Part shown: in pieces, positions 10,256 through 50,800 of the stretch
How positions within the stretch are numbered: position 1 is the stretch's first letter
Layout: every line of letters begins with the position of its first letter
Virus record (IMG/VR): IMGVR_UViG_3300028392_000029
Location: 159,177 to 223,176 of that record
Reading direction: 5' to 3' (one strand)
DNA: 64,000 bases
From: a virus
Notes under the pieces: generated by a model
Seen by the model: the letters and a program-made list of their open reading frames with translations, nothing else
Told to the model about the DNA's origin: nothing
The model's database searches: none
Made by a program: the position numbers and the translations under genes

Positions 10256-10282
10256 AAAATGGCAGAACTAGTCTGCCATTTT
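10256..10282 (-). terminator. Hairpin terminator after the 12089-10296 gene
   Basis: An 11-base-pair perfect inverted repeat (10256-10266 and 10272-10282) encloses a 5-base loop; the minus-strand 3' arm ends in TTTT. It lies 13 bases past the stop of the low-complexity virion-type gene, so it closes the 18807-10296 operon and separates it from dsbA. Confidence 0.75.
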
Positions 10283-10295
10283 GTTGCATAACTAA

Positions 10296-15945: not shown

Positions 15946-17240
15946 TATATACCGTATTTGTTTCTTTTGGCTTTATTTACAGGGCTAGTTTTGTTAGTGT
16001 CAGCGGGCTCTTCGCTCTTGCTAAACTTGCTAATTGTTTTTCCATCAGTGGGGACAGTTTTCATAGCCGATCGAATCTTATTATCGTCTTCTTTGGTGTA
16101 AGGATGATGTGTATTATACTTTTCAGCCCAGGTATCTTGCGGACTGTCTACAGCTTTTATACTCTCGCCGTCGGCCATGGCCATGGCCATCATCATGCGA
16201 TTCATGTGATAGATACGATCGTACCCGCCGATATCGCGTGTTCGAATTACGCCCAGGCTGGCGGCATCGTGGTGGGGGTGTCGATGACTAGTTTTACCTT
16301 CGCGTACAAATTCGTTAGCTTTCATTTCTCTTAATACCCTGTTAGCTTCTTTAATCAAATTAAAGGCTTTTAAATTCTTTTTTGGTGTACTACTATTTAC
16401 ATCAACTGTACTATTCTGTTTTGTAATAGTGCCGACCCCGGCAGCTTCTTCGTCAGTTTTAGTATATACTTGTTGCGGTTTTTTATGCCCCTCACCTCGT
16501 TCCATTTTATCAGGATCTTTGGATTTTTCTTTTTCAAAGTACTTGCGCATTTCTTCTGCACTGGTCGTTGGCTTAGCTTTAACAGGTTTAGTCATGAATC
16601 CCATTAAGCCTTCATCAGTTACTGGTTCTGCTACAGGTTTTTCTTTTTTAGCTCGTTTTACTTTTTCAGGATGTTGGCCTACTGCGGCTACTACTGTATC
16701 AAAATAGTGTTGACCATTTACTTCTAGATTAGGATCTGTACCAGCGGCTCGATAAAATGCGTCCATGTTACCAGCACGAGCCGCATTGCGTAGATCAGTT
16801 GCTGAGCTTACTCTGGGACTTGGTATATGGATGATTTTAGCAAAGTTAAAATAACCATGTGTACTTTCCTTGCCATTGTATTGATTTAATAATTTTCCAG
16901 CCCATGCCCAGTCAGTTGCATCAGTTATATAAGCTACAGTTGCACCATCTCCAACTTCTGCATAAATCTTAGAGGCCAGTGTGATAACTGTAGATTCACC
17001 TAACACATGTCCTTCAATGCTGGGATCAATTGCAGACATCCATGCTGCCTTAACATCAAACGGCAACGGATCGTTGGTGCCGGTTGTACTAGGATTAGTA
17101 CCTATGTACCATTGATGACCTGCATGTTTAACAGCTTCCCAAACTTTGGCATGCCCTTGATGCGGTGGATTGAACCGACCAAAGCAGAATGCCGCAGTTA
17201 CCTTAGTATGAGTTGATTCAAAAAGTTCACGTAAATTCAT
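15945..17240 (-). CDS. Nucleotidyltransferase (cytidylyl/NMN-adenylyltransferase superfamily) with long C-terminal extension
   Basis: This is a 431-residue protein. The N-terminal ~165 residues are a nucleotidyltransferase domain: GRFNPPHQGH (HxGH at 27-30), a central DATDWAWAGK segment, and RVSSATDLR near 146-152, the ISSTxxR motif. The enzyme class transfers NMP to a phosphorylated partner (NMN, phosphopantetheine or sugar phosphates); the substrate is not predictable. The remaining ~260 residues are charged and low-complexity, with a His-rich patch (SHRHPHHDAAS). The N-terminal MNLRELFES fits a capsid-targeting peptide (LFE-S). The start codon overlaps the stop codon of the ligase-like gene upstream. 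It is possibly a packaged enzyme. Confidence 0.78.
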   Translation of the reverse strand: MNLRELFESTHTKVTAAFCFGRFNPPHQGHAKVWEAVKHAGHQWYIGTNPSTTGTNDPLPFDVKAAWMSAIDPSIEGHVLGESTVITLASKIYAEVGDGATVAYITDATDWAWAGKLLNQYNGKESTHGYFNFAKIIHIPSPRVSSATDLRNAARAGNMDAFYRAAGTDPNLEVNGQHYFDTVVAAVGQHPEKVKRAKKEKPVAEPVTDEGLMGFMTKPVKAKPTTSAEEMRKYFEKEKSKDPDKMERGEGHKKPQQVYTKTDEEAAGVGTITKQNSTVDVNSSTPKKNLKAFNLIKEANRVLREMKANEFVREGKTSHRHPHHDAASLGVIRTRDIGGYDRIYHMNRMMMAMAMADGESIKAVDSPQDTWAEKYNTHHPYTKEDDNKIRSAMKTVPTDGKTISKFSKSEEPADTNKTSPVNKAKRNKYGI

Positions 17241-31028: not shown

Positions 31029-31613
31029 TTAGTATTCGCCGCTCAGTTTGATATATACGTTAGCTCCGGCATCAACAGACCATGCTTCAATGACTTCAAG
31101 TTTAGTTGAACCAATTGCACCAACTGTGAATGGGCTAAATCCAGTTGCAAAACGCACAACTCCGCCGTTGGCAGTGGCAAATACTGGTGTTCTAACAGCA
31201 ATAGTGTCGCCTTTCAAAATAACTCTAATAATTCCGTATGCAGGTACCGCAGGCCAGCCGGTAAAAGTTAATGTAGCATTTCCTGCGAGTGTAAATTGTT
31301 GTATAGATCCGTTGGCCAAGTTAATATTTGCAGTAGTAGATACAGTTCCACCGGGGTAGAATATACCGTAAAATTGATTATGTGTACCGTTTGTGATAGA
31401 ACTTTGTAACAGATTATTTACTACAGGAGTGGTACCAGTTGCTAGATCTGCTTTTAATAGTGTATTAGTTTGTAGTGCAGTAATTTCAGACTTGGCTACT
31501 CCTAATCCCGCTGAAATAGCAGTAAAGTTGTTACGAAATCCCTGACTATCGTTGTCCTGCCCTGCTACAGGGTAAGTTGTGTTAATTGAGATATAGTTTA
31601 TTTGACTTGTCAT
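31029..31613 (-). CDS. Tail or fibre-associated structural protein
   Basis: This is a 194-residue protein. The N-terminal YPVAGQDNDSQGFRNNFTAI is a version of the module present at the start of three other fibre proteins here ([G/N]-x-D-[S/G]-x-[G]-[D/F]-x-[R]-x-x-F-x-x-[V/I/A]-N). The C-terminal half is a beta-rich Gly/Thr/Ala sequence ending in EAWSVDAGANVYIKLSGEY, like phage fibre tips. It lies directly downstream of the peroxidase fusion gene and has its own late promoter (31644-31651). Confidence 0.75.
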   Translation of the reverse strand: MTSQINYISINTTYPVAGQDNDSQGFRNNFTAISAGLGVAKSEITALQTNTLLKADLATGTTPVVNNLLQSSITNGTHNQFYGIFYPGGTVSTTANINLANGSIQQFTLAGNATLTFTGWPAVPAYGIIRVILKGDTIAVRTPVFATANGGVVRFATGFSPFTVGAIGSTKLEVIEAWSVDAGANVYIKLSGEY

Positions 31614-34600
31614 ACGGTTATCCTATCATTTCTAAATATAAGGTATTTATCGCCTAGATAACCACTGACAGAATCTATTGTATATCTGTCTACAGTATAA
31701 TCTAATACTTGAAAATCAAATTTACTAAATTTGATGTTTAGCAAAATATCGTTAGCAGTTCCTACTTTACAGAAGCAGATAGGAATAGCTAGGGTATACC
31801 CTTGTTCTTGTTTTTGCCCAGTTTGTATAGTTCTCATCCAAAGCGGCAAATAATTGCGCTCACTTAGTCCTACACCGGATAATCTTGATTGCCAGTTTGC
31901 TATACTATTGGGGAATATCGTATTTGGATTAGGATTAGAGACTTCGTATCCTGTACTGTCGGCTGTTATTATAGGCTCTGGTCGAACAGAATTTGGAGCA
32001 TCTAGATTTAAGACTGCGGCAGAGTTATTCCAGAAATTATTGCTACTATCAACTGTTATAGCATCTGAACTTATTCCAAATTTATTAATTATCTTATTTG
32101 GAAGTTTTCCACTCGCTGGACTTAGCGGGTCTATCATGTTTATATAAATTACTTCGTATAGATCCAACCCTGTAGCAGGATCTACAGCCCTTGACGATGA
32201 CACAGAGCCAAACTGGAATCTTTTACGTTTGTGATTCAATCCCATAGCCCCAATATATGCCGCTGCCTCTTTAGTTTCAATCCCGCCATATACTAGCATT
32301 GATAATGATGATTGAATACCAAAGTTTTGATCATTTATTCTATAAATGCTACTGGGTGTAAAGATGGTTGAGTCATTAATAAATCCCTTCCATATGGCTC
32401 TTTGGTCTTGTTTTAAGAATGGTCGAACTACTATGTTACTATAAGAAGTAGTATTAGGTGTATCAATGGTCAACGTAAATGTTCTAGTACGGGAGCTGTA
32501 ACCAAATTGATCTCGAGCTTCAACAGTAAACTTATACGTATAGTCAAACGTTGCGATACCTTTATCAAACGTAGTGGCACTGGTATCAAATCTAATCAAA
32601 CCCAATGAACCGTTTAACGGATTATAATACTGATTAACTTTACCAATAATTTCTCCGTCAAGATTTAATGTTAGTCCAGGCGGTAGTGCTCCGTCTACGA
32701 TAGAATAGATTACAATAGAATTAGGAACAGATGATACTGCGCTGATGTTTAATGTTGAATAGTAATCTGCATGCAATGTTTCTAAAATACTATTAGTTTT
32801 CCACGTAACAGTACTGTCAATCTCACCGATGATGGTTACTGTAAATGTTTTATATGCAACTGTAGTTTCGCCTTTCTCTCCAATTCTTGTAGCAGTCAGT
32901 GTAAAAGTATAGAGCTTGCTGATAGCAGGTTGATATGGAACTATGCCATATACCTCGCCAGTGCCTGCATCAAATGTAGTACCTGGCGGAAGTTTGCTTA
33001 ATGATCCCATATAAAACGGAACCATATCGGGAAGTGTCATTACTAGCCCAGTTGTTAGAGTTAATCGATATGCGCCACCGCCTAAATCAGCTACTACGGA
33101 AATTCTATATAGTTCACCAGTTGCATTTGGAATATAGTTTGCAAAACTAATGTATTGACCAAATAGCGGCGGACTTGATGCGTTAGTAATAGTTAGACTA
33201 TGACTGCCGATAGTGTTATCTAGATTAGTTAGTTGCTTTGTAATTGCTCGTATTTCTTGATTTGTTGGAGAAAGATTAAAAATAACATTACTATTGTCGT
33301 ATAAGACAATTGGCAGGGTGATATAGTTGTTTGCTCTAAGAACACCTAAGTTTGAATCATTAATCCATACTGGTTCGCGTAAGTATGTTGCATCAGCAGT
33401 AAAATTCCCAGCGCCACCGTCTAACGTTGTTGAGTCTGCACGGAATTGATCTGTACCTACAACAAATATTTTAAAAATTCGTTGAGCATAATTGACACCA
33501 TCAGTTAGTGTTACACGAAATTGATAATTAGAATTGATACTGTTTGGCGGATGTAACGGACTATTGTAGTCATAAAACACTCCATCATACTGATAACTGT
33601 CAAAACCGTCATTGGAAGTAGTACCAAAATCAAATGCCACGCCATCGTAATAGCCATCGTCGTATGTGCCTGAGCCGTCGATCGCTGTGATTTTATAAGT
33701 AGGTAGTATAAATCCCGATAGTCGTCCTGAACTTGACAGCGTAAGTCCTTTAGGTAGTACTCCGTCATCACTGGCTATAAAGTATGTTAGTTTACTACCG
33801 ACTACAGTGTTCAAATCAAATGCTTCAATTTGATAATCAACATGTGTATCGTCAAGTACATATAATTGCTGGTGGACTCCGATCGGCAATGGTCCAGCGG
33901 CAGTTACAAAAACTGGTATATTAGAACCTGTAATAGTTATAGTAAAAGTTCTATCGGCTATATCTGTTCCGTTTGTAGCTCTGATACAAAATTTATAAGT
34001 TGTATCGTTACTAACAATGTATGGACTTCCAGTAATTGTGCTACTTTGTAGTATCAATCCAGGCGGTAATGATCCACTAATCACTGTAAATGTTATTCCA
34101 GCAGTATCGGACAATGGAGGAGGACTAGTGCTAGGTGATCGAGCAACTATGCTTGGAACAGCGCCTGAAATAAGGTCTGCACGTTCTACTGCTACAAATG
34201 CATCAGCCTGCATGTGTACTGTATCAGTATTGCGTAAAATTATATCAGATAAGGTAGCACTATTAATCCAAGTTAAATCTGTTGGATTCCATGGTTGATT
34301 TTGATACCAAGATTGATCACCATCTCGTAATCGAATCATTTGATCTGCTATGATAGCACGGAATGTCGGGCCTACCATTGCTCCTGGATAGCGATCCTCT
34401 GCAAGACCACCAACCCATAGATCTATGTCATTGATATTAACATAAGCTGACTGTAATGCATTGGCTACAGTTACATCGCTAGTAATTTGACTAAAGCTAG
34501 TATATGCTGAAAATCCTAATGCTATACGCATTTGATTTAAACTTGGAAGACCTAAGTCACGCCCACGCTGTATATTTGTTGCGGCAAGATCTAATGCTGC

Positions 34601-35803
34601 CGGAGGATCGTTAAGCAAGTTACGTAAGTCTTCAATAATATATACATCTAATTTGTTAGATATATCGCTGGCTAATTTTCTTAAGAATCCGTTTGCGCCA
34701 CCGTTGCGTTCATACTGTGCAGGTGTTAAGAAAAACGCTTGTCCTAAAGTTAAAGATTCTGTAATGTTGCCTGCTTCATCTACACGATCTTGTGCGCCAG
34801 ACACTATGCTATGGCCAAAGCGTAGTGCCGCGGCAGCAAATTCTATTTTTATACTTGCATCGACTTCAGGTTTAAATCCAGTGTAAGCAGATATCGCATC
34901 ATTACCGATAATCTTTGGTAACCATTCTTTGTAAGTAATGACTTGTTCTTCTGCAATAACAATATTGCGGGCACGTTGATATAACTGTTCACCCGTCCAA
35001 GATGGATTAGCCGCACGTAGTCGATCTACATGCCAGTTATGTTCTCGTATAAACAGTGTCTGAATTGAAGTTAAATCTGGATTTTCAGTTCCACGGGGAT
35101 CGCCGAACAAAAATGATCCATTAACGATGGGACCATATTGTCCGTTACTAGATGTTAACAATTTGCCAGTAGTGGCGATCGAACCGCCTTCTCGTAATAA
35201 TACTGGATTAGTAAATCCACTAACAGGCGCAACACCGGGAGGGTATGCAATACCATAAACTACACTACCATCGATCCACCCTGTTACGTCATTGATCGGC
35301 AGTGCGGCAATCCCATTGATACCTGTACCGGGTGCAACTTGCGCACGAGTTACCGGTATGTGACTACCCGGTGTTAAATTAGTGTCGCCTGCTGGAACTA
35401 TAACATCAATATTAGCACCGCCAGTTCTTTCACTAGCCAGCTCATGAGTTATAAATTGACCCCATGCGTACATAAATCCACTATAGCCAGTTGGATCAGC
35501 AGTTTCACCTTCATTTACTTGATCCCATACTACTAAATTACTAACTGTGCGAGCATTGGCTAGATCAGTACGCATGGCATGTAAGCCATCTGTATAGCTG
35601 TTTACTGGGTATCGGGCAAATGCACTACCAGCAGAATTTCTTAATGGTACTGTTGGGTGATGACCTGTGCCGTCATATGACGGTGGAGGAACACCGTTAA
35701 ACGCCGCCGGAGGTATTAACGGTAATGGTAAGTTAACCGATACTTGTTCAGGGAATGATCCAAGACTGTAACCAGAACGTTGAGTCCAGATGTTTAGTGA
35801 CAT
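31610..35803 (-). CDS. Animal-type haem peroxidase fused to Ig-like repeats, virion fibre-type protein
   Basis: This is a 1397-residue protein. Residues ~60-530 are a complete animal haem peroxidase (peroxidasin/myeloperoxidase class) domain. Distal His120 sits in WGQFITHEL (Gln116), and GDPRGTEN supplies catalytic Arg237 and a haem-linking-type Glu240. LFIREHN is at 251-257, and proximal His331 is in ALRFGHSIV. NIQRGRDLGLP (410-420) holds the Asn that pairs with it, and RLRDGDQSWY closes the domain. The Asp that forms the second haem ester in MPO is Thr119, and the Met that forms the sulfonium link is Asn241. From ~560 on there are about four putative-Ig (He_PIG) modules, such as GSLPPGLILQ and GALPPGLTLN. 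It lies in the fibre block, so I infer it is exposed on the particle. It has no signal peptide. Confidence 0.88.
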   Translation of the reverse strand: MSLNIWTQRSGYSLGSFPEQVSVNLPLPLIPPAAFNGVPPPSYDGTGHHPTVPLRNSAGSAFARYPVNSYTDGLHAMRTDLANARTVSNLVVWDQVNEGETADPTGYSGFMYAWGQFITHELASERTGGANIDVIVPAGDTNLTPGSHIPVTRAQVAPGTGINGIAALPINDVTGWIDGSVVYGIAYPPGVAPVSGFTNPVLLREGGSIATTGKLLTSSNGQYGPIVNGSFLFGDPRGTENPDLTSIQTLFIREHNWHVDRLRAANPSWTGEQLYQRARNIVIAEEQVITYKEWLPKIIGNDAISAYTGFKPEVDASIKIEFAAAALRFGHSIVSGAQDRVDEAGNITESLTLGQAFFLTPAQYERNGGANGFLRKLASDISNKLDVYIIEDLRNLLNDPPAALDLAATNIQRGRDLGLPSLNQMRIALGFSAYTSFSQITSDVTVANALQSAYVNINDIDLWVGGLAEDRYPGAMVGPTFRAIIADQMIRLRDGDQSWYQNQPWNPTDLTWINSATLSDIILRNTDTVHMQADAFVAVERADLISGAVPSIVARSPSTSPPPLSDTAGITFTVISGSLPPGLILQSSTITGSPYIVSNDTTYKFCIRATNGTDIADRTFTITITGSNIPVFVTAAGPLPIGVHQQLYVLDDTHVDYQIEAFDLNTVVGSKLTYFIASDDGVLPKGLTLSSSGRLSGFILPTYKITAIDGSGTYDDGYYDGVAFDFGTTSNDGFDSYQYDGVFYDYNSPLHPPNSINSNYQFRVTLTDGVNYAQRIFKIFVVGTDQFRADSTTLDGGAGNFTADATYLREPVWINDSNLGVLRANNYITLPIVLYDNSNVIFNLSPTNQEIRAITKQLTNLDNTIGSHSLTITNASSPPLFGQYISFANYIPNATGELYRISVVADLGGGAYRLTLTTGLVMTLPDMVPFYMGSLSKLPPGTTFDAGTGEVYGIVPYQPAISKLYTFTLTATRIGEKGETTVAYKTFTVTIIGEIDSTVTWKTNSILETLHADYYSTLNISAVSSVPNSIVIYSIVDGALPPGLTLNLDGEIIGKVNQYYNPLNGSLGLIRFDTSATTFDKGIATFDYTYKFTVEARDQFGYSSRTRTFTLTIDTPNTTSYSNIVVRPFLKQDQRAIWKGFINDSTIFTPSSIYRINDQNFGIQSSLSMLVYGGIETKEAAAYIGAMGLNHKRKRFQFGSVSSSRAVDPATGLDLYEVIYINMIDPLSPASGKLPNKIINKFGISSDAITVDSSNNFWNNSAAVLNLDAPNSVRPEPIITADSTGYEVSNPNPNTIFPNSIANWQSRLSGVGLSERNYLPLWMRTIQTGQKQEQGYTLAIPICFCKVGTANDILLNIKFSKFDFQVLDYTVDRYTIDSVSGYLGDKYLIFRNDRITV
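31644..31651 (-). promoter_or_regulatory. T4-type late promoter for the 31613 gene
   Basis: GATAAATA on the minus strand, inside the 3' end of the peroxidase fusion gene, lies 31 bases ahead of the ATG at 31613 and before an AGGA site. It matches seven of eight bases. Confidence 0.55.
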
Positions 35804-35885: not shown

Positions 35886-38600
35886 TTATGTTAGTCCTGT
35901 TCCGTTGATGTACCACGTTGTGGCTGCCACTTTAACTGCGGTGGCCATACCATGTGCGGCCAATGTGCGTGTACCAGTTGTACCTGTACCTGCTAGATAC
36001 ATAGTGTCTGTGGTAATAGCAATACTGACTGTGGTAGCACTTGGACCAGCTATGAATGTAAGTGTAGTTCCTATTGGATAGGCCACTGTTCCATTTGCTG
36101 GAATAGTCATAGTCTGACTTGCTGTATTCACATAAATGTGTTTGCCAGAATCACCTATGGCCAATGTAGCACTAGTGTTGGTAGCACTTTGTGGAAGTCC
36201 TAGATACCCTAGGCTAGAAGCTGTACTTGATGTAGTAGCAGTTGCCGCAAAGCCAGTGATAGGTGCACCGCTTGCACCTATGTTCAATGCTGTGGTAGCA
36301 CTACCAGCAATGGTAACTGAAGTTTGACTTGCATCGTTTAGCACACTAGTGGCCGTTAATACATCAACGTTGTTGATTTTATATTTCTTGCCTGAAGCAA
36401 TGTTCCAATGTTCACTTGCAGTCCAGTTGGTATTGGCATTGTCCCAGACTATGGTTTTATCAGTGGTACCTTTGAGAGTAATACCGCCGCCGTTGGCAGT
36501 TACATCAGTTGCACCTGTTGTTGTAATATTGGTAACTGAGCCAGCAACTGGTGTTGTACCGCCAGTTGCCGTATAAGTTAAACTTGTACCATCAATAATG
36601 CTAGCAACAATATAAGCTCCAGACCCACCTAAACTTCCCGGAGCACCATTAGTAGCAGAAATTGCACTGCCGACAATTAGATCAGTAGTGGTCGTCATGC
36701 CGGTAATAGTTGCGGCCCATGGACTTCCTAGTGCTGTAGCCACAGTTAGTGTTAAACTATTTGAGCCTAATAGGCCGCCTAATACCGCACCTGAAATAAG
36801 AATGGTGTCGCCGATCGCATACCCACTTCCCGGAGTAGCTACAGTGATAGTCGTGAATCCAGCGTAACTGGTTCCGGATCCAGTTTTTGTAATATTAAAT
36901 GTTGCACCTATGCCTGTACCACTGGTAGATAGCTGACTTACACCTGAATAAGTTCCGGCTGCGGAAACACTAGTACCGCTAGCTGTAAAAGTAGTTGAGC
37001 CTTGTAGTAGTGCGCCCTTGATAGAGCCAACAGTTCCTGTAGCACTAACTGTTTGAGATGCCACACTGCCTAGTTCAATATTTTTGTCATCAACGGTAAC
37101 AGTAGTTGAATTAATGTTTGTACTTGTTCCTTGTACAGTTAAGTTGCCACTGATAACTACGTTGCCGGTATGCGATAATGTAGAGTCATTGCCAATTTTT
37201 GTAGCCAGTGTTAGTACACCGAGGCTGTTTGTTACATAGAATGTTAAACTTCCCGGAGTCTTTCCGGCTGCTACTGTACCGTCAACAGATGATTCAATTT
37301 TTGCAGTGTACTGCAAATTAGTTCCATCATATGATCTAAATGCTATCTGTCCAGTCATGTCTCCAAAAATTAAAGTTGTTGGAGTAGCAATAGTTCCCCT
37401 GTATTTTCTTAATGATAGTATTGCTGGATTGTTATCACTAAAGTAATTGCTTACCCTTAAGATCGAACTGTTGCCGCCGGCAGTTGCGGTAACATCTAAA
37501 CTACCGCTACCTCCGTCGTTAGTAAAAAACGGACCAATAGTCACCCTGCCTACACCTGTCGCTCGTAATACTGAATTTATATTACCGTTGATATCTTGAA
37601 CATTCATGGTCAAGCTACCGGGCATGTTACCTTCGATATATCCTGCGACTGTCTGAGGGCCTAGGGTGCCAACTAGTGCATACTGCACTTGGGTAGTAGT
37701 CGGAGTTCCTGTAATGACGAAAGTTCCATTGAATGCAGTTGGGGTAACTCCAGCAACTAGAATAGTTTGACCTGTAACAAAACAAACACTAGGTTGCGCG
37801 GCAAAAGTTAAAGTAGCAGTTCCGCCAGATGCAAATGCCGCGGTGATAGCTATTCTAGGATTAACTACAGGTCTAACAGTTGTTGCTCGACCAGCAACAA
37901 CACTAACGTTATTATCTATAACTTCTGCTCTTATATTTGCGACAAGCTGAAATTGATTACCGGTGTGTCCTGAAAACGCTAGGTATCCTATATCATCAAA
38001 ATAAGATAGTGACGTCGGTACAATACTTGTTCCTCGTCCTCGTCTAATAGAAATAGAATTGCCAAGACTGTCATTATTATATGTGTCAGATAACAGTACA
38101 CTTCTACCACTAGATGATGCAACAATTCGGAATGTACCGTCAGTATTGGTTAGAATATTATCGACTTCGCCCCAGACAAGATTTTGTGATGCCGCTATAG
38201 TATTTCCAGCCGCTGGCCAATAAGCCAGCGAGCCTGCTATGCCGGTAGGTATGACATTCAGTGTTAGCGTACGAGTAACACTATTATATGAGATTGTAAT
38301 GCCTTTTGTTGTTGCAGTTGTTAATAAGGCAGCAGCCGCATCTTTTGTTCGATTTGTTGTAAAGTAAGTATTATAGGTACCTTCGTTGACGTTGTCAGTA
38401 GTTAGGGCAACATTGCCTATTTGGCCGTTAACAGTTTGTACAGGTGCTAGAGAAATGCCCCCGGCAACTAAACTGCCAGTGCCCCCAGTCTTACCTCCAA
38501 CATACAATAAATTAGTATCAGTTGTATAGAGTAATTCACCTTCTGCAGGAGTAATCCCAGTTCGTTGACTGTTGGTGCCTCTTCTTATTTGTAATGTCAT
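35886..38600 (-). CDS. Tail fibre protein
   Basis: This is a 904-residue protein. The N-terminus (MTLQIRRGTNSQRTGITPAE, GELLYTTDTNLLYVG) matches the short domain common at the start of phage tail-fibre and receptor-binding proteins. The rest is Gly/Ser/Thr/Ala-rich beta repeats with segments such as GNLTVQGTSTNINSTTVTVD, typical of trimeric fibre shafts. The C-terminus is YPIGTTLTFIAGPSATTVSI. GGAGAATAG precedes the ATG. It is in the fibre block, upstream of the minicistron and the peroxidase fusion. Confidence 0.85.
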   Translation of the reverse strand: MTLQIRRGTNSQRTGITPAEGELLYTTDTNLLYVGGKTGGTGSLVAGGISLAPVQTVNGQIGNVALTTDNVNEGTYNTYFTTNRTKDAAAALLTTATTKGITISYNSVTRTLTLNVIPTGIAGSLAYWPAAGNTIAASQNLVWGEVDNILTNTDGTFRIVASSSGRSVLLSDTYNNDSLGNSISIRRGRGTSIVPTSLSYFDDIGYLAFSGHTGNQFQLVANIRAEVIDNNVSVVAGRATTVRPVVNPRIAITAAFASGGTATLTFAAQPSVCFVTGQTILVAGVTPTAFNGTFVITGTPTTTQVQYALVGTLGPQTVAGYIEGNMPGSLTMNVQDINGNINSVLRATGVGRVTIGPFFTNDGGSGSLDVTATAGGNSSILRVSNYFSDNNPAILSLRKYRGTIATPTTLIFGDMTGQIAFRSYDGTNLQYTAKIESSVDGTVAAGKTPGSLTFYVTNSLGVLTLATKIGNDSTLSHTGNVVISGNLTVQGTSTNINSTTVTVDDKNIELGSVASQTVSATGTVGSIKGALLQGSTTFTASGTSVSAAGTYSGVSQLSTSGTGIGATFNITKTGSGTSYAGFTTITVATPGSGYAIGDTILISGAVLGGLLGSNSLTLTVATALGSPWAATITGMTTTTDLIVGSAISATNGAPGSLGGSGAYIVASIIDGTSLTYTATGGTTPVAGSVTNITTTGATDVTANGGGITLKGTTDKTIVWDNANTNWTASEHWNIASGKKYKINNVDVLTATSVLNDASQTSVTIAGSATTALNIGASGAPITGFAATATTSSTASSLGYLGLPQSATNTSATLAIGDSGKHIYVNTASQTMTIPANGTVAYPIGTTLTFIAGPSATTVSIAITTDTMYLAGTGTTGTRTLAAHGMATAVKVAATTWYINGTGLT

Positions 38601-38614
38601 TCTATTCTCCTACC

Positions 38615-39085
38615 TTAAAAGGTTCCTAAATCGTATGTACCTATTGGGTTGGCAAATGTGCCTTGATCGCCAATAGTGCCGCTTAATAATGTTTGTACTT
38701 GGGTATTTAATGTTCGTATATCAAAACCCCAAACTGTGGTTTGTATGTCACCCGTGCCCGTTATGTTGTGATTATTTAAATTTAAATTACCACCTAATCT
38801 TGGAACCGGGTCGCTTTGTACAGCACCTAACGCATTGATATTAACTGTGGTCGGGGTACTTGTAACAGTAACTCCGCTACTGCCTGTTATGGTTTTAAAC
38901 TGTAGTACGCCGTTGGTATCTACTGAAAATAACCCAGCTCCTGATCCAATGTTCTGTCCGTTTATACCGGCAATTTGTGCTGATAAAAATACAAAATTAT
39001 CATTAGCTTTGGTAAAAGCCGTGCGTAAATCATCGCCTGTACCGTCATTCGCGTATGAACCTAATTTAATCTGTTGAATTGCCAT
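38615..39085 (-). CDS. Fibre-associated structural protein with shared N-terminal module
   Basis: This 156-residue protein begins MAIQQIKLGSYANDGTGDDL RTAF (continuing KANDNFVFL). The NDGTGDxLRTAFxKxNxNF module is shared with the fibres at 39116-41863 and 41863-53667. The C-terminal part (LGGNLNLNNHNITGTGDIQ) is a short trimeric fibre repeat. It could be a connector between a fibre and the baseplate or another fibre, because it is mostly just the shared module. Confidence 0.78.
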   Translation of the reverse strand: MAIQQIKLGSYANDGTGDDLRTAFTKANDNFVFLSAQIAGINGQNIGSGAGLFSVDTNGVLQFKTITGSSGVTVTSTPTTVNINALGAVQSDPVPRLGGNLNLNNHNITGTGDIQTTVWGFDIRTLNTQVQTLLSGTIGDQGTFANPIGTYDLGTF

Positions 39086-39115
39086 GGTCTATTCCGTTTA
39101 GTATATTTACCGTAA

Positions 39116-41863
39116 TTAGCTAATGCTTACTCTGTGTATAGTCAGTCTACAGCCGCTGGCAAGATCGATATTTGCTCCGCTAGCATTCCTTAAAACAAAA
39201 CAATGAATGGTGTCCCCGGCGGTGGCTTGAACCACAGTTGAATAGTGTAGATATCGCCCCGACCATGCATCCTGCATGATTGTGACTGTTTTAGCACCGT
39301 CACTGCTGTCTATGAGGAAAAAGCTACCTGAGTTTAATGTCACTGATGTTGAGAAATATATTGACACATTGAATTGATAGTATCCTGTATATGGTGCTGT
39401 GAATACACCATTGGCGTATGCATTAGCAGTGTCCACTGTTTCAGTAAACAGAATGTAGGCGGCACTTGCTTGATCTATGATTGTTCTTGTAGTTGATGTT
39501 TGGGCAATCACTGTGACAGGTTTGTAACTGGCAATAACACTGGCATCTGGTAATGTTATCTGGCCACTACTTCCAAAAATATAATTGTTACCGCCCACTT
39601 GTAGTGTAATGGCATTTGATAAAGTATTTGACAGCGTGTCTCCACTGAACGCAAAATTACCCAAACTTGGTGCGGATCCGTAGGTAACTTCTTTAGTTGT
39701 GGTGTTGTAATATAACACATTGGATGTTGCTGTGGCAGTTCTAATTGGTGCCACATAGAAACTGTTGGGTTGTTCGGCAACACTATTGACTATAACACCG
39801 CTGGCATTTAATATGATGGTGTTGGCCGCTTGGTTGTTGTCTCCCGCCCTATAACCGATTGCTATGGCATTGGCACCTTGGCCGCCTAGGCCGGCTTGCT
39901 TACCAATGGCCACGCTGTTTACACCTTGTAAGTTATACCCAGCACCAAAGCCCACAGCCACTGCACCTTGACCTTGCACGGATATTCCAGCCAAGGCACC
40001 AATGGCCACTGTTTCAGTTCCTTGGTCACTATTACCCGCTTGTGTGCCAATGGCCACTGCATTGGCACCTTGTGAGGTTGTTCCGGCATCTTCACCAAAT
40101 ACCACACTATTACCCGCAGTGTCTTTTATCACTGCACCGTTGGGCAATGTCAATGCACCATCCGTGCCAAATGTAAAATTATGTGGAACTGTGCTTGAGG
40201 TTGAAAAAGATACACTACGGATACCCGTATTGTTAGGCAGTGTGCCGTCTACTCTACCACTCACACGCTGCCAGGTTGGATGTGCTGGATCGTATTGTCC
40301 TTGAGTTGTGAACGCCTGTGTTATGGTGCCAGTAAACAAATTAGGCTGGCCACCGGATGTTTCATACACCACACCCATACCCGTGCCCAGAGCCAGTCCA
40401 GTCACATAGGTCACAAACGCAGGGGTTCCGAACAGGGCAAACTCAATCTGTGACGGATTGCGTTGATACCATCCCTGTATAAATGTGCCGTTTACTGTTA
40501 TGTCTCTTGAGAAGGCTTGCGCATTGTTATAGGTCGGACTGGTGGTAACCACTGTTTCCTGAGTGGTAACTGCAAGCGCAGTGTCTACCGCAGATTTAAT
40601 GGTGTTGCTGGGAAATGTCAATACACCAGTTGAAGCAAGACTCAATGTGCTGCCACCGTTGACCAAACTACTCACACTGCCAGTCCAGGCTGTGGTCTGT
40701 ACAGAAGCGTCTGGGAATGTTAAGCTACCATCTGTGCCAAGACTCCACTGTTTAACACCACCAGAAGTTTGTGTTTCAATTTGCAACACTTTGTTAAGAT
40801 CAGCGGTTATAGTAGAGTAAGGCGTGCCATTTTTCCGAAAGGTGAGTCCTGACGGCAATGTTAAGACGCCACTAGAACTAAGGCTCACAGTTTGTGTGCT
40901 GTTGACTAATGTGCTTACACTGCCAAGCCAGGCTGTGGTTTGTACCGTGGCATTGGGGAATGTTAAATTACCATTCTTGCCAAAGGTCCAGATACTGTTT
41001 GTTGCCCCAGGCTTATAAAAACTCCAAGATGAAACGCCAAAAGTATCGCTAGCACCTGTGAAGTCGTCAGTACTTAAAGTTATACGCCATTCCCCAATAT
41101 TAGCGTCAGGAGCAGCCACAGCAGTTATTTGCATTACACATGTTCTACTAATCACATAGTCACCAACAGCGACTACGGTTGCCCAATTGGGTGCTGAAGA
41201 AATTGAGAACACTAGGGTAAAAAAATCACTGTAAAGAGCACTAAGGTTAGATAGGTAATAAGCGCCAGTTTGTATTTTTATATCCAATGCTGATTTTATT
41301 TTTGACCCAACTCCAGCCATGATATCAAAATTTGGCAATGTTACTGTGCCATCCGAGCCAAGGCTCACTGTGCGAGCACCGTTGACTAATGTGCTTACAC
41401 TGCCACTGCTGGCAGTAACAACGCCACTGCCATCTATACTTAGGCCAGTGCCAATTTTGATACCACCCAATATGGATGCGGATGCTGTGGGCAATGTGTA
41501 AGCACTGGGTATGGTGGGCTTGTTGGTCAAGTCTGTATATGAACCACTGAACAATGTGGGTTTGTTCAGTATAACTCCTAATCCACTAGATGCAGTCCAG
41601 TTGCTTTGTACCTGTGCCGCCGCCCCAGTTAGTAATATTTTGTTATTGGCATCATCATAGGTCACCGTGATGTTGGTGTGACTGGCATGTGTGAACAAGG
41701 GTGCCGCATAGTCCTGTGCCAGTTCAATCAAAGCCGCACTTGAACCGCCAGTTAAGGCATACAGTTCTGTGAAGTTTGCATTTACTTTTATAAACGCATT
41801 ACGAAGTGTATCACCGCTTTTGTCGTTGGCACTAGCACCAACTAGGATATTTTGTTTAGACAT
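39116..41863 (-). CDS. Tail fibre with YadA-like repeats
   Basis: This 915-residue protein begins with the shared module (ANDKSGDTLRNAFIKVNANF). Four to five ~30-residue repeats around residues 590-675 (ANAVAIGTQAGN, GTETVAIGALAG, VNSVAIGKQAGL, ANAIAIGYRAGD) match the head repeats of YadA-type trimeric adhesins. Repeats of VSTLVNGARTVSLGSDGTVT earlier in the chain form shaft sections. The C-terminal ~120 residues (ITVIAQTSTTRTIIDQASAA and beyond) resemble a C1q/TNF-like tip (YTGYYQFNVSIYFS). It is probably a receptor-binding fibre. Confidence 0.86.
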   Translation of the reverse strand: MSKQNILVGASANDKSGDTLRNAFIKVNANFTELYALTGGSSAALIELAQDYAAPLFTHASHTNITVTYDDANNKILLTGAAAQVQSNWTASSGLGVILNKPTLFSGSYTDLTNKPTIPSAYTLPTASASILGGIKIGTGLSIDGSGVVTASSGSVSTLVNGARTVSLGSDGTVTLPNFDIMAGVGSKIKSALDIKIQTGAYYLSNLSALYSDFFTLVFSISSAPNWATVVAVGDYVISRTCVMQITAVAAPDANIGEWRITLSTDDFTGASDTFGVSSWSFYKPGATNSIWTFGKNGNLTFPNATVQTTAWLGSVSTLVNSTQTVSLSSSGVLTLPSGLTFRKNGTPYSTITADLNKVLQIETQTSGGVKQWSLGTDGSLTFPDASVQTTAWTGSVSSLVNGGSTLSLASTGVLTFPSNTIKSAVDTALAVTTQETVVTTSPTYNNAQAFSRDITVNGTFIQGWYQRNPSQIEFALFGTPAFVTYVTGLALGTGMGVVYETSGGQPNLFTGTITQAFTTQGQYDPAHPTWQRVSGRVDGTLPNNTGIRSVSFSTSSTVPHNFTFGTDGALTLPNGAVIKDTAGNSVVFGEDAGTTSQGANAVAIGTQAGNSDQGTETVAIGALAGISVQGQGAVAVGFGAGYNLQGVNSVAIGKQAGLGGQGANAIAIGYRAGDNNQAANTIILNASGVIVNSVAEQPNSFYVAPIRTATATSNVLYYNTTTKEVTYGSAPSLGNFAFSGDTLSNTLSNAITLQVGGNNYIFGSSGQITLPDASVIASYKPVTVIAQTSTTRTIIDQASAAYILFTETVDTANAYANGVFTAPYTGYYQFNVSIYFSTSVTLNSGSFFLIDSSDGAKTVTIMQDAWSGRYLHYSTVVQATAGDTIHCFVLRNASGANIDLASGCRLTIHRVSIS
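39850..40095 (-). repeat. YadA-like head repeat array in the 39116-41863 fibre
   Basis: Around 80 residues contain at least five copies of [N/T]-x-V-A-I-G-x-x-A-G separated by 14-17 residues. The same class of repeat forms the left-handed beta-roll head of trimeric autotransporter adhesins. Confidence 0.85.
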
Positions 41864-44800
41864 TATGATCTCCCTACTGCAACTTCGATTACGCCCACAC
41901 TATCGTAGTCTTTGTCCTGGATAGCCTTACCAATAATACTGCCAATCTGTGGATTAGTTGACTTGACTGCGCAACCCTCTACAGCTGATGTTGTTAGTAA
42001 ATCACCCTTCTTAACTCGACCAACTACTCGGCACGGAATACGACCTGCTAGTGCTAGACAGACCTTGATGCCCTGTTGTCCTTCGTTCATTACATAAGCC
42101 GGGTTAGTTGTTACTACACCTGCTAATCTAGTGTCGTTAAATGTAGTAGTTGAAGTAACTTCTTTGTCACCACCAAACACTAACACCCAACCTTCTGGAT
42201 ATTCTTGATCACCTTCATAGAACTCAGCCAAGTCAGCATATGTACTGCGTAGTTGACTACCAGTTGTTAAACTCCAGTTACCATCAATAGTACCAGCGGC
42301 TGTACTTGATCCAGCTGTTAAGTTATTTGATTTTAATATACCTAGGCTAAAATCAAACTGGCTACTAGCCGTCAAGTACCACTGACCCTCCATTGATCCA
42401 CCAGTAGCAGGTGCACCAGCAGTAAATGTTGTAGCAACTAATGTTCCGTTGCTGGTATTTAAAGTACCCTGTGTAGTAATAGTAGTGTTACTGCCAGTAG
42501 TACCAACAGCAGTCATGTAGTAGAATGGAGTTGCTTGAACTATACCACCTGGGGTACTATGTTGTACAGTAGTTCCGCTAGTTGATAGTACTGTGAAGCC
42601 TCCAACTTTTAAGTTAGCAACGTCGGCACTTCCATCAACCCCAGTTTTAAGTATTTGATTAGCACCACGAGTTGAAGTAATACCAACTACAGTATATGAA
42701 TTATTTGCACTGTTAGATCCGTCATAGCCTACGACCATAGCACCACTTGCGCCAAACGATCCATTACTAATACCACCGGCAGCATTTAAAATCTGTGTTG
42801 GTGTTACTTCTGACGGACTAGCGGCGCTGGCAGTTAAATTACCAAGCACAGTTCCAACACTCATCTGTTGTATTTTACTATAGGTAATACCGGTTATAGC
42901 ACTAGTACTGGTTAATAAATCAATCCAACCGTTGGTACTGCTAAATGACGAGCTGTTAAAACTAGCTATACCTAAATCAGCTTGCGCAATTCCAGTGTAG
43001 TTAGCTCGAGTCGTAGCCGCAGTCATTGCCAGCTTGCTTTGCGCGATTGCCGCGCTAGCATTAACATCGGCGTTGACAATTGCTCCGGCATTGAGGTTGG
43101 TAACTATAGTGCCGGTGCCCGAGTTGTAGGTGATCGATAAATCACCTGTAGGAGCCGCAACGTTTTTCCACTTACCCAACCCGACATCGTACACTAAGAA
43201 CGATCCCGATGACACAGCATTTAAGAAGAATATAGTTCCACTTGGGTTGCTGTTCGGATATGTTCCTAGAGTAATTGTGGCAACACCTGCGCCGCTGATA
43301 CTCACACTTTGAACGATCTGAGTACCGTCAAATCCAGTACCATACACTGCTAACCCGCTAGTAATACTTCCACTGATGTTGTTAACTGTTAACACATAGC
43401 TAATACTACTGCCGCTTAGATACAGGCCCCTGCCAGCGGCAATGCCCACATCTAGCAATTTGAATATCGAGTTTAATGCAATCAAACTTTGGTCAACATA
43501 ATCTCTGTTAGCCCCGTCATACTTGCTAGTACTGGTACTTGGCATTGTTAAATTACCAATACTAAAGTTACCTAAATTTAAATTACCCTTCATGGCTAGT
43601 GTGCCGTTAAGTGCTAGATATCCTGGGCCGATCAAACTAGTTGTAGCTACTGGACTACCGCCATAGTCTAAACCTAATCTGTTGTCAATGAAACTACGAG
43701 TAGCACTTTGTACCGGAACAATGTCCGGTGCGTTATCAGTCATTGTAGGATCAGTTGAGAATTGAGTAACAACAACACCGCGTTTAAATCCTAAACCGTC
43801 CAAGTTACTAAGGGCAATACTTGCTGAGAATGTAACAGTACCAGTGCCCTGGTCAACGCTGAAGAATCGACCTACACGGAATATACCGTTTTCGTCTGTG
43901 GTCACATAGAACACACGACCTACTGTTTCTTCTTTAACTTGATTACTACCGTTTGACTGTATTGCCGGATTACCGTAAATTTGTACAGGATAGTTAGTAG
44001 TAACATACCCGCCAGTACCGATATCTAAGAAGTCATGTCCCGTAGCTCGGCAAGTACTAATACGTGTGGTAATTTGAGCCGCTGATCCAGCTGGTCTACC
44101 TAGACGCAGGGTAGCACTGGTAAGAGTACTAAATGGTCTTCCAATACCTAGCGTATTGCTAGAGCCACTAGTTACTTCTAAAGTCACAGTAGTATTAAAC
44201 GCTGTACTCCATGTACCCGGATCTTGAGGATATGTTAGTGTAATAGTTGTGGCGCTACTTGCACTGCACAAATAGAATCCGTTGTACAATGGATTGTTGT
44301 TACCCGAAACAAGATAATAGCTTCCTGTAACGGGCGCAGTTGTTGTGGCAAAATTCAATACCACACTGTAAGTCGGGCCAGTACCGATGATAGTCTTACT
44401 TGTAAATCCAGTACTAGCATCAACTGCAAGACTTGTACCATATCCGTAGTTTGGAGAATACAATGACAACAGAGTTCCTACACTAACACTACCAGACGAT
44501 ACGGTTATATCGCTTCCACCTAATGAAGTAGCAATACCGATAGATGTTCCTGCTACTTTGTTAATGTAGTACAATGTATTTGGAGAAACTCCGTTAACTG
44601 GCGTTAAGATGGTCCCAGTTCCAAATGCCGAGCCACTGAATGTAATCTGTTGTCCAGCATTTAATCCGGTAGCCGATGCAACTGTTAATAGATTTGCCAG
44701 CCCTGAAATACTAGTACTGGAAACAGTTTGACTTGCACTAACTGTGTAACTGGTACCGACAATACCAATATTAATTCCGTTAGTAGCCGCACCACTGAGT

Positions 44801-47800
44801 GTGAACGGGCCGGTGCCACTGGCAATATATGTTCCGGTAGGTATACCGGTCCCCACCAACACCATACCAATACTTGGAGCAGTACCTGATACAATAGTTA
44901 ATGTAGTTGTACTTGTAATAGTTCCAACAAACGTTGCACTATTAACAGCAGTAATATAAGTTCCAGTAGTTACTCCAGATCCGGATAATACCATACCGAG
45001 GACAGGAGTGCCAGATGCTACAGTAGTTAAACTTAATGTAGTACCTGTAATCCGTCCAGTAGAACTTAATGTGCTATTAGTAGTTGCAGTAACATTTGAA
45101 TTTGCTCCCGGGTCGGTTGGATACAACAATGACATGGTCACAGTATTTGTACCAGCACTGGCTGTTGTAGCAACGGTAGCTGTTGATGTTAGCACTGGTG
45201 TAAGCAATACGCTACCCAATGCAGGTGTTACTGTAATAATAGGTTGAGAAGTGTATCCGTATCCTGGACTCACTAACACATAGGCTACGATACTACCGTT
45301 GGCAATAGTTACTGTTGCAATGGCTTGACTTGTCGCACCACCGCCTGAGAACACAACGGTTGGAGGATTTGCTGGATCAAATCCACTACCACCATTGGTA
45401 ATTGTAATACTTTGTACGGTAGCTACTAAACTAGAACTTACTATACTGCCCGATGGAATCCAAACAGCAGGAGCCACTGTAAATTTAGTTGTACTATCAA
45501 TACTTTGGATAATAGTTCCACTAGGAACATATGCGCCAGTGCTGGTAGATGATACTACCATGCCTACAGATAAACTAGAAGTAGATGATACTGTTAGTTG
45601 ACTGCTGTTAACAATGCCAGCAATCTGCTTGCTTCCGTTATAACTAGTATTACTGTTATTTGCTATGGTAATATAACTGTCGACCGCAGGTAACTGTGCC
45701 GTCGGACTGTATGGAATATTAAATGTTACAATCTTAGCAGTTGTACTACCTGTTTGCAGTACACTACTAGCATAGGTCATGGAATTGATAACAGTTCCAT
45801 CGGCCGCTAAGTTGCTTATTGGGTTAGGGTCAACACTTAAATATCCGTTGGCTGTAACACCAAATGTAACAGTGCCAGTTGGAGGGTTAACTGTAGCCGC
45901 GCTACTCAAGGTGATTGTTGCTGTATTTACACCACCAGAATTAGATATAACAACAGTTGATACAGTTTGTGTTCCGTTGAATCCTGTACTACTGCCAGTA
46001 CTTGTTAAGATTTGACCTTGACTAATTGTACCTGCAAGACCGTTAACTACTAGTGTATAAGTTGGCCCAGCTGTTACAGTATAGCTTACAAACAACCCTG
46101 TTGAAATAGTCAGTGGCGCAGTATAACTAATAACTCTATGTGTACGACCACCCCAGCCAACTACATAAGTTCCTTTGTTAATTTGATTAATGGTTGATGC
46201 CGAACTAACGGCTAACACAGCAATTTTGTTATCTCCAACCTTACTACCTTGAGTTTTAGTAGCGTCAGTTGGATCCAATTGCGTTATATTATTACCATCG
46301 GTTGTAAATTTATAATAGCTAAAGCTAGCATCAGTTTGTAACACTGATATGTTTGCACCTAAAGTTTCTCCAGTTGCCTCAGTTAACCCATATGCAATTA
46401 CTCGATAAATTTCAGATAAATTGTCAACATACTGTAACGCAGTACTTGGACGTACAGGTTTAACGTTATCAATATTATTGAATTTTATAGCTTGTAATAC
46501 TCTAAAGGTCACAGTTTGACCGTCATATAATGCGTATTGTAGTCCAGTGCTTGAAGTACTGTCAGTGCCTGCGGTACTAAGAGTTACAGATAATATGTTT
46601 TTACCATTGATAGTAACAGTGGTGTGTGCAATTGTTGATATTAGATATCGAACAATGCCGCCACTCTGTACACCGTGATCAATTTCCAGTTCGCTGGCAG
46701 TGTATGGAGCATATGAGTATCCGGTAATGTATAGAGTGACAGACTGTTTAGTTGAAGTTGGAGTCATCTCATTAACAAACAAACCTTGCTTGTATATACG
46801 AGCTACCTGAACCATATCATAGGATAAGTTTACACTATCGGGCAATTCTGTTACGTCGTATCCTGTAGCACGTAAACCATAAACACCGTGTGAGTTAGAA
46901 CCAGCAATACTTCGAACTTGACCGCCATTGTTGGCCCAGTAGCCTGTGTAACAGTAATATGAGAATGTAGATACTTGTTCAGTCAATCCACCGTTGGTTG
47001 CAAATACACCATAACCTAAATCGTTAATTTGTGTAAAGTCGTTAGCCAACATGGACTTATTACCGCCCATTTCAATATTGATACCTAGACCGGCACCACT
47101 GTTTAAGTAGGCAACTGATCCAGATAACAATGTAGATTTCAATCCCTGTAATGTAGTGTAATCACTAGATCTAGTTTGACTTGAATACCATGATTGACTT
47201 GCAGGGGTAGTACGTGTAGTTGGCGTATCAAAATCACCATCTGCAACATAGTCAGTTAGAATTGCAATCTCGGTGTTTACTAATCCTGCTTCAGTTGCGG
47301 TTGCCACAGGCAAACTTATATTTTGAGTATATGGATTACCAGCAGATTTACTTACAGTTTGATTTTGAACAACCTGTTGCATAACAGTATTCAATCGACC
47401 GTATGCCGCAACGCAGTAAGATTCTTCTCCTAAGATTTGACTCACACCGCTGCCGTAATAACTTAGCGATACATCATAGATGGCGCTATTACCACCATAC
47501 ATAATATCGTAACAGATAGCATCAATAATAAATCCTGTATCTCTTTGAGATTTAAGGGCGTTATAATTAGGAATAGTGTTTACGTTATATGTACTAGCAA
47601 TCCAAGCAGACACTTCCTGTTGTAAGAATATTCTGTTAGCTTGTAAAATATTTTTTGCCTTAACAGCATTAGGATTGTTATAAGTACCACCCGGTGTTGG
47701 GAAGGTAGTCGCTGGCACGGTAGTAACACCGTTATTGATCATGTTAGTAATTGTAAGCAAACTTGCCGCAATTGAATTCTTGCCAGTAGTTGATACACTA

Positions 47801-50800
47801 CCTAAATTAGAATTAACATATGCTAGACCTTGAGTTGTAAACAATGTAGCTAAAACAGTTAAACTATTCTGTGGGAACAAATATGTATAACCTGAGAACA
47901 AACTCTTATAGTTAGAACCAGTTACCATGTCTAGACCAATATTGTCTATAACACCACCCAACGCAGTTGTAAATTTAGTTGTGTTGTAAAAATTAGGCGG
48001 ATAGAAAGGTGTACCAGTATCAATTGTTAGCACCACTGTATAGGTTGCCGCATTAAAACTTACAACATCGTTAACTTGGAAGCGATTACCTTGTATATAG
48101 AAAGCGCAAGGAGTTTGTGGAGCACGAATATCAAGTCCGCTGTTAACACTTCCAACAACGGTAATTTGTGTACCATTAACACCTGCAATATTTTGTTCTA
48201 CCCTAGTAATTTTACCAAACAAACGTCCAGTGAATCCATCAATGAATTGACCGCCAGCAAATCGTTTGTAATTGATACTTTGACTAAAGCTACCGCTCTC
48301 TTGAGCATAAGGTGATTTAGTTTTAATTTGTCCTTCTGGATCAAGTACCATGGCAAATCCGCCGTGTCCTTGCATGCTGATCATTCTAACACGAGTAGCA
48401 TCATTACATAAGAACACATCCATTAATCTATTGTTTAGCGGAGTACTATTAATATCTAACGGATCAGTTAAGTAGTGTCTTCCGTAATTAATTGTACTGT
48501 ACAAATGCCAAGCGCCAACAGCATATGTTGTTGCGGCAGCAAAAGGATAAATCACTGTTAAGTTTAACACATTACCACTGATAGTGCTAACAACAGCTTT
48601 ACCCGGAGTTCCGGTACCGCTAGTGCTGTCAGTGAATACTAATCCTAGCCAACTTGCCGGTGCTTGACCAGTACCTAGTGTAGCTGTGATTGATCCTGTT
48701 ATACCGCTGAGTGTAATAGTTGATCCAGTAGTGGCAGCATAATCGGTACCACTATAATCAATAATACCAGTCTGTATGCCGTCAATGACACTGTCTCTAT
48801 AAAAGAACACACTGCGCCATGGGCTTTGACTTACACGATCTAATGGACGTACAATAACACGTCGGAAGTCATCACCAGAAATTGTTACGTTTGCAGATAA
48901 TTTGATTGGGTAATCTTCATAGTAGGTACCGCTTTCAACACAGATAGCAATGTTTTGTTCCGGAACAGTTTCACCGTAGTCTATTTCTTCCCCTACTCTA
49001 AAGAATCCTGGACGAACCATCCTTACTGTGATAGTGTCATATGAAGTAGTTACACCTGGAGTGTATGTTACAATTTGGCCGTATGCATTGCTAGTTCCAC
49101 CGACTAGTATTTTGGCAGGAATAATGTGTACCGCACCTGGTATACCTTGGTCTACAAATCCGTTACCGCCGTTGTCAAATGTAATAGTATACAAGCCCGA
49201 GCCAAATGTAGGGGTTGGAGCCGCACCATATCCATTTGTAATAATACTAATTAAAGTATTCATGTTTGTGGTAAATGTAGTTTTTGCAGGAGTACTTGGC
49301 GACTTTGCAACACCATTCACCGTTGTTTGTTGTCTTACTAGATCTTGGAATCGTGTTTGCTGGGTTTTATTAAGTACCTGAATACCGAGATTTTTAGCAA
49401 ACACAATACCGTCTAATGTTTCACGTAACTGAGATCCAATGGCAATAGCTTTTGCTGATGCATTTTTATAATAGCTTTTACCAGCATTGACGCTTTGATA
49501 AGTTCCGCCTGTTAGTATATCAATAATCATTGCATCAATGATGTATCCAATATCTCGATAACAAGTTGCTTCATTATAATTAAACCCGCCTGGATATGTA
49601 ACAGCGAGGTATGCAGTAGTTGCGTTTCCTATAGTATCTTTACTGTTATTTAAAATTACTTGTGCAGCCTGGGGAATACTTGCATAAATTGTTAAGTCTG
49701 GAAGAGATTGGGTATAGGTTGTATCGTTAGCAACAATATCTGTAACATAATTGAACAATGCATTAATGTCTCCGGCTGCCGCGGCACCGTCAACCCATAC
49801 TGCGTTTCTTACCTGTACAGCACTGTTACCAGTTGCAGGAGTCACTACTGAATTTGACGACACAAGAATAGCAACCGCCTGTGCATGAGTAATTGCTGCC
49901 ACTGTTGCAGTTACTTCATTGCTGGCGATTTGTCTAGTGCCACCGGCCCAATATTGATATGCGGCTCTCAGTGTTGCTGAATTACCACCATATGTTAGAT
50001 CGTAACAGACTGCTTCTAATATAGATTTCACATCTCTACTGCAAGTGGTGTTACTATATACTAAAGATGGGTAATTGGTATTAATCCAAGCAATAGTATC
50101 TGCGGCAATAAAATCAATATTGGCCAATATGGCCGAACGTGCGTGAGCAGTTGTAACTGTTATCGATGGCGGGTCAATAAATGTTGGAACAGACCTACTG
50201 GCAATACCAGCTGTTAATAAGTTAGTAATAATCCCAAACAAACTTGTAATTGTAGAACTGACGGTCACATTATTGATTACTGAGAATGTTGAATTGATAT
50301 AGCTAATCTCAGCTGACTGGATTGCAGATTTCTTCGCAATAATTGCAGTTCTAGCAGTATTCAAAGTAGCACTGGCATTGGCTGTCGTTGGCCCGTACAC
50401 TACTGGATTAGGTGTACTTACACTATTAACGATCCCGGCAATCGTTGCTATGTTGTTTGATATTGATGTGCTGACAATTGTTGAGCCGCCCAATGTTTGA
50501 TTGATATACTGATATACACTCAATTGATACACAGTAGTAGTCGAAACATTATTAATGATCGCTTGACACAATGTATTAATATAATTAATTGCGGCGACGG
50601 TGGCAGTTTTTTCATACTGAGCAATTTGTAAAGTATTGCCTATCCAATATTGAAGTCCAGAGTAAACACTGTTACTGTTACCACCGTACATAAAGTCGTA
50701 GATCAAACTCCATATAATATATTTTACATCTCGCTTACATGTGGCAGAACTGTAGCTTAGTGTTGGATAGTTTGCTAATAAGAAAGCAATAATCTCTGCT

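Follow-up and report, generated by a model that had tools for sequence, protein, structure and literature searches.

The window analysed here is a 64,000-nt stretch that forms the end of an IMG/VR virus record of 223,176 bases. It encodes a fibre-type protein into which a haem peroxidase domain is nested (Table 1). The protein has an An_peroxidase match (Pfam accession PF03098) that covers residues 42–536 and positions 3–530 of the 530-position profile (E 3.2e-114, 382.9 bits; the Pfam cut-off is 25 bits). This E value and the He_PIG modules in the same open reading frame together exclude a match by chance. In a sequence search of solved structures, the top match is the cyanobacterial peroxidase 8s6c (E 8e-82), and the other best matches are Dictyostelium peroxinectin A, eosinophil peroxidase, dual oxidase, myeloperoxidase (MPO) and lactoperoxidase (LPO). 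A sequence-only reading of the locus had described a phage fibre-type protein with an entire haem peroxidase domain of the animal type, and the near-full-length profile match and the existence of peroxidase-free versions of the fibre bear this description out. The motifs it had listed are all present (as QFITHE, GDPRGTE, REHN, RFGH, NIQRGRD and RLRDGDQSWY) and align with those of solved peroxidases and of 62 bacterial relatives.

Table 1. Features of the peroxidase-fibre gene and its surroundings, in window coordinates.
Feature	Position	Strand	Basis or remark
Fibre-type protein with nested haem peroxidase	31610..35803	-	ATG start, open ORF, 1397 aa
N-terminal strand of first Ig-like (He_PIG) module, residues 1–28	35720..35803	-	near-identical to L011
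Animal-type haem peroxidase domain, residues 42–536	34196..35680	-	PF03098 and AlphaFold2
Cassette with linkers	34031..35716	-	1686 nt extra versus 74 nt in L011 (blastn)
Distal helix WGQFITHE: Gln116, Thr119, His120, Glu121	35441..35464	-	73-row alignment
GDPRGTE: catalytic Arg237 and haem-ester Glu240	35084..35104	-	R and E in 73/73
RFGH: Arg328 and proximal His331	34811..34822	-	73/73
NIQRGRD: Asn410, hydrogen-bond partner of proximal His	34556..34576	-	72/73
Remainder of first He_PIG module, residues 559–625	33929..34129	-	Pfam, profile positions 28–96
Second He_PIG Ig-like module	33668..33862	-	
Further He_PIG-like stretch	32834..33094	-	under curated cut-off
Last He_PIG-like module	32465..32734	-	equivalent loop holds peroxidase in L304–L307
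Conserved C-terminal module, residues 1087–1397	31613..32545	-	24% identity over 304 aa with Atu_ph07 gp329, E 1e-14
Downstream fibre gene	31029..31613	-	its ATG overlaps the peroxidase-fibre stop (ATGA)
Upstream fibre/baseplate block	35886..53667	-	ORFs of 904 (Mtd_N), 156, 915 and 3934 aa

The rest of the protein had been taken to consist of Ig-like modules. This holds for the He_PIG modules, whereas residues 1087–1397 form a distinct C-terminal module that is no Ig repeat and that has invariant residues across relatives. Residues 1–28 are common to the window fibre and to peroxidase-free fibres.

The gp23-type capsid protein of this virus is closest to those of jumbo phages (Sinorhizobium phage Phosso, 73%; Vibrio phage 2.275.O, 70%; Pectobacterium phage CBB, 68%). 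Open reading frames of the block upstream of the peroxidase-fibre gene match tail fibre, baseplate wedge and virion structural proteins (PHROG and Pfam). The 3934-aa open reading frame of this block (window 41863–53667, minus strand) has PHROG matches to tail fibre and short tail fibre proteins and no Pfam domain. The T4-type late promoter motif TATAAATA has two matches in the window, neither of them at the peroxidase-fibre gene.

A gene pair of the Agrobacterium jumbo phage Atu_ph07, gp329–gp328, matches the peroxidase-fibre gene and its downstream neighbour. The downstream gene is 44% identical to gp328 over the N-terminal 62 aa. Like the window fibre, gp329 combines the C-terminal module with Ig-like modules and carries an enzyme. 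The two differ in that the gp329 enzyme is a protease, a subtilisin (Pfam accession PF00082) located at the N-terminus in the syntenic slot, whereas the window peroxidase is nested inside an Ig module. The Pfam and PHROG assignments of the neighbouring genes and this synteny support the setting in a fibre gene block that had been read from the letters of the window. The shared Ig and C-terminal modules and the synteny also place the window protein in a phage fibre family with He_PIG modules.

Three gene clusters, CDS 284–329 among them, encode most of the proteins that mass spectrometry found in Atu_ph07 virions (PMC6102473); gp329 is the last gene of the CDS 284–329 cluster, at its border. 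By analogy, the peroxidase fibre is likely located in the virion. As the peroxidase is slotted into a fibre-type protein, the particle probably delivers an oxidising enzyme of its own to the bacterial surface. A fibre function is itself suggested by genomic context and by one distant relative. Because the C-terminal module is common to the peroxidase and protease versions, it is the best candidate for a virion anchor, and we infer that it may attach the protein to the particle such that the Ig modules and the enzyme are displayed.

Several observations indicate that the peroxidase is a mobile cassette within this fibre. We identified two loci that encode the same fibre without a peroxidase (L011 and L012). 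L011 is 97.8% identical to the window over 9030 nt on one side of the cassette and 91.7% identical over 120 nt on the other (blastn), and these flanks enclose 74 nt in L011 and 1686 nt in the window. The He_PIG match of L011 starts at residue 18 and profile position 14, and that of the window protein starts at residue 559 and profile position 28. The He_PIG profile is thus intact in L011 and split in the window, which shows that the peroxidase is nested in a loop of the first Ig-like module. In a second group of loci (L304–L307, for example the L305 open reading frame 6300–10508), the cassette instead occupies the loop of the last Ig-like module and the first module is empty. Finally, the peroxidase of L003 is 98% identical to that of the window, as against ~50–60% for the rest of the fibre. 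This contrast and the second insertion site show that the domain moves by itself between phages. Phage by phage, the domain is 73–98% identical and the surrounding fibre ~40–73%, with the higher value falling to the domain in each phage compared.

The insertion site in the first Ig-like module also accommodates other inserts of ~60–160 aa (L068, L078, L088, L095, L098, L100, L101, L104 and L107). The L098 insert (L098:5722–8571) resembles a CBM5/12 carbohydrate-binding module, slightly under the Pfam cut-off, and the other inserts gave no Pfam name where scanned. At least 578 stretches of viral contig sequence encode fibre relatives, and 32 IMG/VR loci encode relatives of the window protein. 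A peroxidase is present in 13 of 104 distinct complete fibre open reading frames inspected, a sample that was partly seeded with the peroxidase protein and so gives no frequency; most of the fibre relatives inspected are without the domain. A genome scan with phage-only patterns gave no matches, and a scan with a mixed alignment succeeded.

Fold prediction and a structure search, which had been proposed as a check on the domain assignment, returned a mostly alpha-helical peroxidase fold. An AlphaFold2 model of the domain built from a shallow phage-only alignment had a pLDDT of 34.6. Modelling was redone with bacterial relatives added (input of the window domain, 10 other phage sequences and 62 bacterial sequences) and gave a pLDDT of 94.7 and a pTM of 0.94. 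Foldseek TM scores of this model are 0.92 against 8s6c, 0.88 against MPO and LPO, and 0.85 against Dictyostelium peroxinectin A (DdPoxA, 6erc). The nearest solved structure, 8s6c, is a peroxidase of Cyanobacterium TDX16 that has the superfamily fold and the pocket residues in common with the phage domain.

The haem pocket was assessed in an alignment of 73 rows (11 phage and 62 bacterial). Gln116, His120, Asp178 (the Asp of the Ca2+ site), Arg237, Glu240, Arg328 and His331 are invariant in all 73 rows, and Asn410, the partner of the proximal His, is kept in 72. Within the distal helix, Gln116 is the halide-site Gln and Glu121 occupies a Ca2+ ligand position. A distal Gln/His/Arg set and a proximal His–Asn pair define the pocket motif of these enzymes (PMC4420034). 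It follows from the alignment and the predicted fold that Gln116, His120, Arg237, Glu240, His331 and Asn410 should meet at one haem.

Two positions set the phage enzymes apart. Directly before the distal His, 11/11 phage rows have Thr and 62/62 bacterial rows have Asp, and Thr is found at position 119 in all 24 distinct fibre-fused open reading frames with an intact motif. The Asp of the distal motif normally makes one of the two haem esters (PMC4420034). Asn241, which lies at the position of the sulfonium-forming Met243 of MPO, is likewise Asn in 11/11 phage rows. Both replacements had been read correctly from the window alone. With Glu240 present and the ester Asp absent, one covalent haem bond is expected; this agrees with the earlier proposal of at most one such bond, and the universality of Thr119 would extend it to the phage fibre family. 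Without the Asp ester, a lower redox potential and weaker halide chemistry are to be expected. DdPoxA is also without this Asp (Ile in DdPoxA, Thr in the phage domain) and keeps the ester Glu, which shows that the superfamily tolerates the loss.

Profile, fold, distal and proximal residues and the ester Glu make the domain a member of the peroxidase–cyclooxygenase superfamily (PF03098). Narrower assignments do not apply. A cyclooxygenase or alpha-dioxygenase identity is rejected as the residue three before the proximal His, which we take to be the position of COX Tyr385, is Arg328 and not the catalytic Tyr in 73/73 rows. Membership in the chordate peroxidases (MPO, EPO, LPO and TPO) is rejected as the second-ester Asp of GQxxDHD is Thr119, and the domain is no myeloperoxidase proper, as Asn241 stands at the Met243 position.

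The bacterial relatives are 35–42% identical to the window domain and belong to Planctomycetota, Pseudomonadota, Verrucomicrobiota and Bacteroidota. They have the ester Asp, whereas the fibre-fused phage copies have Thr, lack a signal sequence and are nested in a fibre. The fibre-fused copies form one clade (SH-aLRT 100) apart from the bacterial peroxidases. In this tree, rooted at the midpoint only, the sister of the clade is a free-standing 482-aa peroxidase (L317:7869–9317, plus strand) that keeps the ester Asp and has Asp instead of the Asn partner of the proximal His. Other genes of the L317 contig, read by eye as DNA polymerase III alpha, ThyX, a MazG-like open reading frame and a helicase, are phage-like. 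It is plausible that a bacterial peroxidase was captured as a free gene and was later fused into a fibre, with loss of the ester Asp. Pairwise omega between phage peroxidase copies is 0.06–0.19, indicative of purifying selection, which argues that the domain is kept for its sequence. We also noted more distant peroxidases (22–31% identity) on other IMG/VR contigs (L320–L335), several with signal-like N-termini; these could be viral or misassigned host DNA.

We consider it reasonably probable that the protein is a virion-borne, single-ester peroxidase cassette that uses H2O2 to oxidise thiocyanate, iodide or organic donors at the host surface. Under this model, phages acquired an animal-type haem peroxidase, which became a swappable cassette in an Ig-module loop of the fibre. 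The protein would fold in the host cytoplasm and take up host haem b, with at most one covalent haem bond made autocatalytically through Glu240, and would then be built into the virion, held by the conserved C-terminal module. When the particle meets a cell, H2O2 from that cell, from its neighbours or from sunlit water would generate compound I, which would oxidise thiocyanate, iodide or exposed phenolic or aromatic groups. The resulting oxidant burst would be very local and would modify or loosen the surface layer that the phage must cross.

Cytoplasmic folding and loading with host haem fit the observation that the peroxidase domain contains no cysteine and that no signal sequence is seen at the fibre N-terminus; an upstream hydrophobic stretch is present in 45 of the 62 bacterial relatives. 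Neither psbA nor a Cu/Zn superoxide dismutase gene was found in the 223-kb record, which may be incomplete, and thus nothing points to a cyanobacterial host or to peroxide made by the phage.

The choice of substrate follows DdPoxA, which its authors describe as the only member with a single Glu ester to have been studied (PMC5787809). In DdPoxA, chloride is unreactive, bromide reacts at ~15 M-1 s-1, and iodide and thiocyanate react at >1e8 M-1 s-1 (PMC5787809). These single-ester kinetics make thiocyanate, iodide or organic donors likelier substrates than chloride, and chloride oxidation by the phage enzyme appears unlikely by the same analogy. Of the products originally proposed, hypohalous acid would accordingly need changing in favour of the products of these donors. 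DdPoxA differs from the phage domain in being a secreted, glycosylated, disulfide-bonded eukaryotic protein that is not part of a virion, and the two are 29% identical in the structural match. A second characterized enzyme, RbMPO of Rhodopirellula, uses I-, SCN-, Br- and Cl- as substrates and is lethal to E. coli, showing that bacterial enzymes of this superfamily can be antibacterial (PMC10204396).

The phage may benefit in adsorption or penetration, through protection or through cross-linking, and we place local surface oxidation first. A protective virion peroxidase would remove H2O2 or organic hydroperoxides that harm the particle or are released by the host, with oxidant products as a side effect. 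Consumption of H2O2 is inherent to peroxidases, and a low redox potential, as suggested by the single-ester site, would suit peroxidase over halogenation chemistry (a correlation reported in PMC5787809). However, a soluble catalase or peroxiredoxin would suffice for this purpose without display on a fibre, and the presence of a protease (Atu_ph07) and possibly a carbohydrate-binding module (L098) in the same slot points to a surface-acting role. We regard a protective role as doubtful.

It is unlikely that the domain serves in cross-linking, in which tyrosyl radicals or hypohalite-type intermediates would attach the fibre or the phage covalently to polymers of the host, or would make the fibre harder as it is assembled. 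Peroxidasin cross-links collagen IV. In part of the superfamily, for example in the multidomain peroxidasins, a peroxidase domain is typically joined to structural proteins (PMC3533774), and the phage pocket is intact. Yet a near-identical phage has the fibre without the domain, so hardening must be inessential, and we identified no particular Tyr-rich target. A role of the domain in binding or as a spacer, with catalysis dispensable, is very unlikely: one haem-ester residue is replaced family-wide, but all other catalytic residues are invariant in 11/11 phage rows, and both the low omega values and the higher conservation of the domain than of the surrounding fibre speak against it. An assembly chimera or contaminating cellular DNA is extremely improbable and is refuted for the family, since, although same-lineage contigs (L001 and L027) stop inside the peroxidase region, complete and continuous fibre–peroxidase open reading frames occur on many independent contigs the phage copies form a single clade, and the nearest bacterial sequences are only 35–42% identical.

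Surface oxidation by a fibre-borne peroxidase would have its closest functional parallel in tailspike and fibre depolymerases. These enzymes are lyases, hydrolases or esterases, and the likeness, predicted here from sequence, lies in the display of an enzyme on a tail-type protein for action at the cell surface. The difference is that the window fibre carries a haem oxidoreductase, with no polysaccharide-cleaving domain found. Among viruses, the Orpheovirus haem peroxidase and the Yasminevirus alpha-dioxygenase have the same fold (23% and 16% identity, respectively); they belong to giant viruses of eukaryotes and are the only named virus-encoded relatives of the fold in BFVD, where no phage protein convincingly matched the domain. 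No PHROG family matches the window protein, a search of 50,697 phage records gave no peroxidase-domain match even at E values up to 1, and a plasmid search returned only cellular peroxidases. A literature search of open-access journal papers found no phage, virion or viral haem peroxidase of this type. The fold and enzyme-bearing fibres are thus both already known, and it is their combination that appears to be new.

Phages may, as we tentatively suggest, display a myeloperoxidase-type oxidative weapon in an interchangeable slot of a virion fibre, turning host peroxide into oxidants at the point of entry. If so, this would be, to our knowledge, the first haem oxidoreductase that is a component of a bacteriophage virion and a redox counterpart of the depolymerases. 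The phage entry enzymes known to us are hydrolases, lyases, esterases and proteases, and an enzyme that acts by oxidation during entry or attack would broaden the chemistry with which viruses breach bacterial surfaces. A fold whose best-known role is in innate immunity would then also serve the attacker. The occurrence of occupied and empty sites in near-identical phages makes the proposal directly testable, and the slot, with a peroxidase, a subtilisin and possibly a carbohydrate-binding module among its occupants, lends itself to use as a display platform.

Other enzyme-like genes were noted in the window, all on the minus strand. A tryptophan halogenase-like gene (2420–3640; Pfam accession PF04820, E 4e-30; phrog_2928) is present, with no evidence linking it to the peroxidase. 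The remaining genes encode a cytidylyltransferase-like protein (15945–17240), a radical-SAM-like protein with a sub-threshold match (61916–63277) and a 2OG-Fe(II) oxygenase-like protein (63274–63849).
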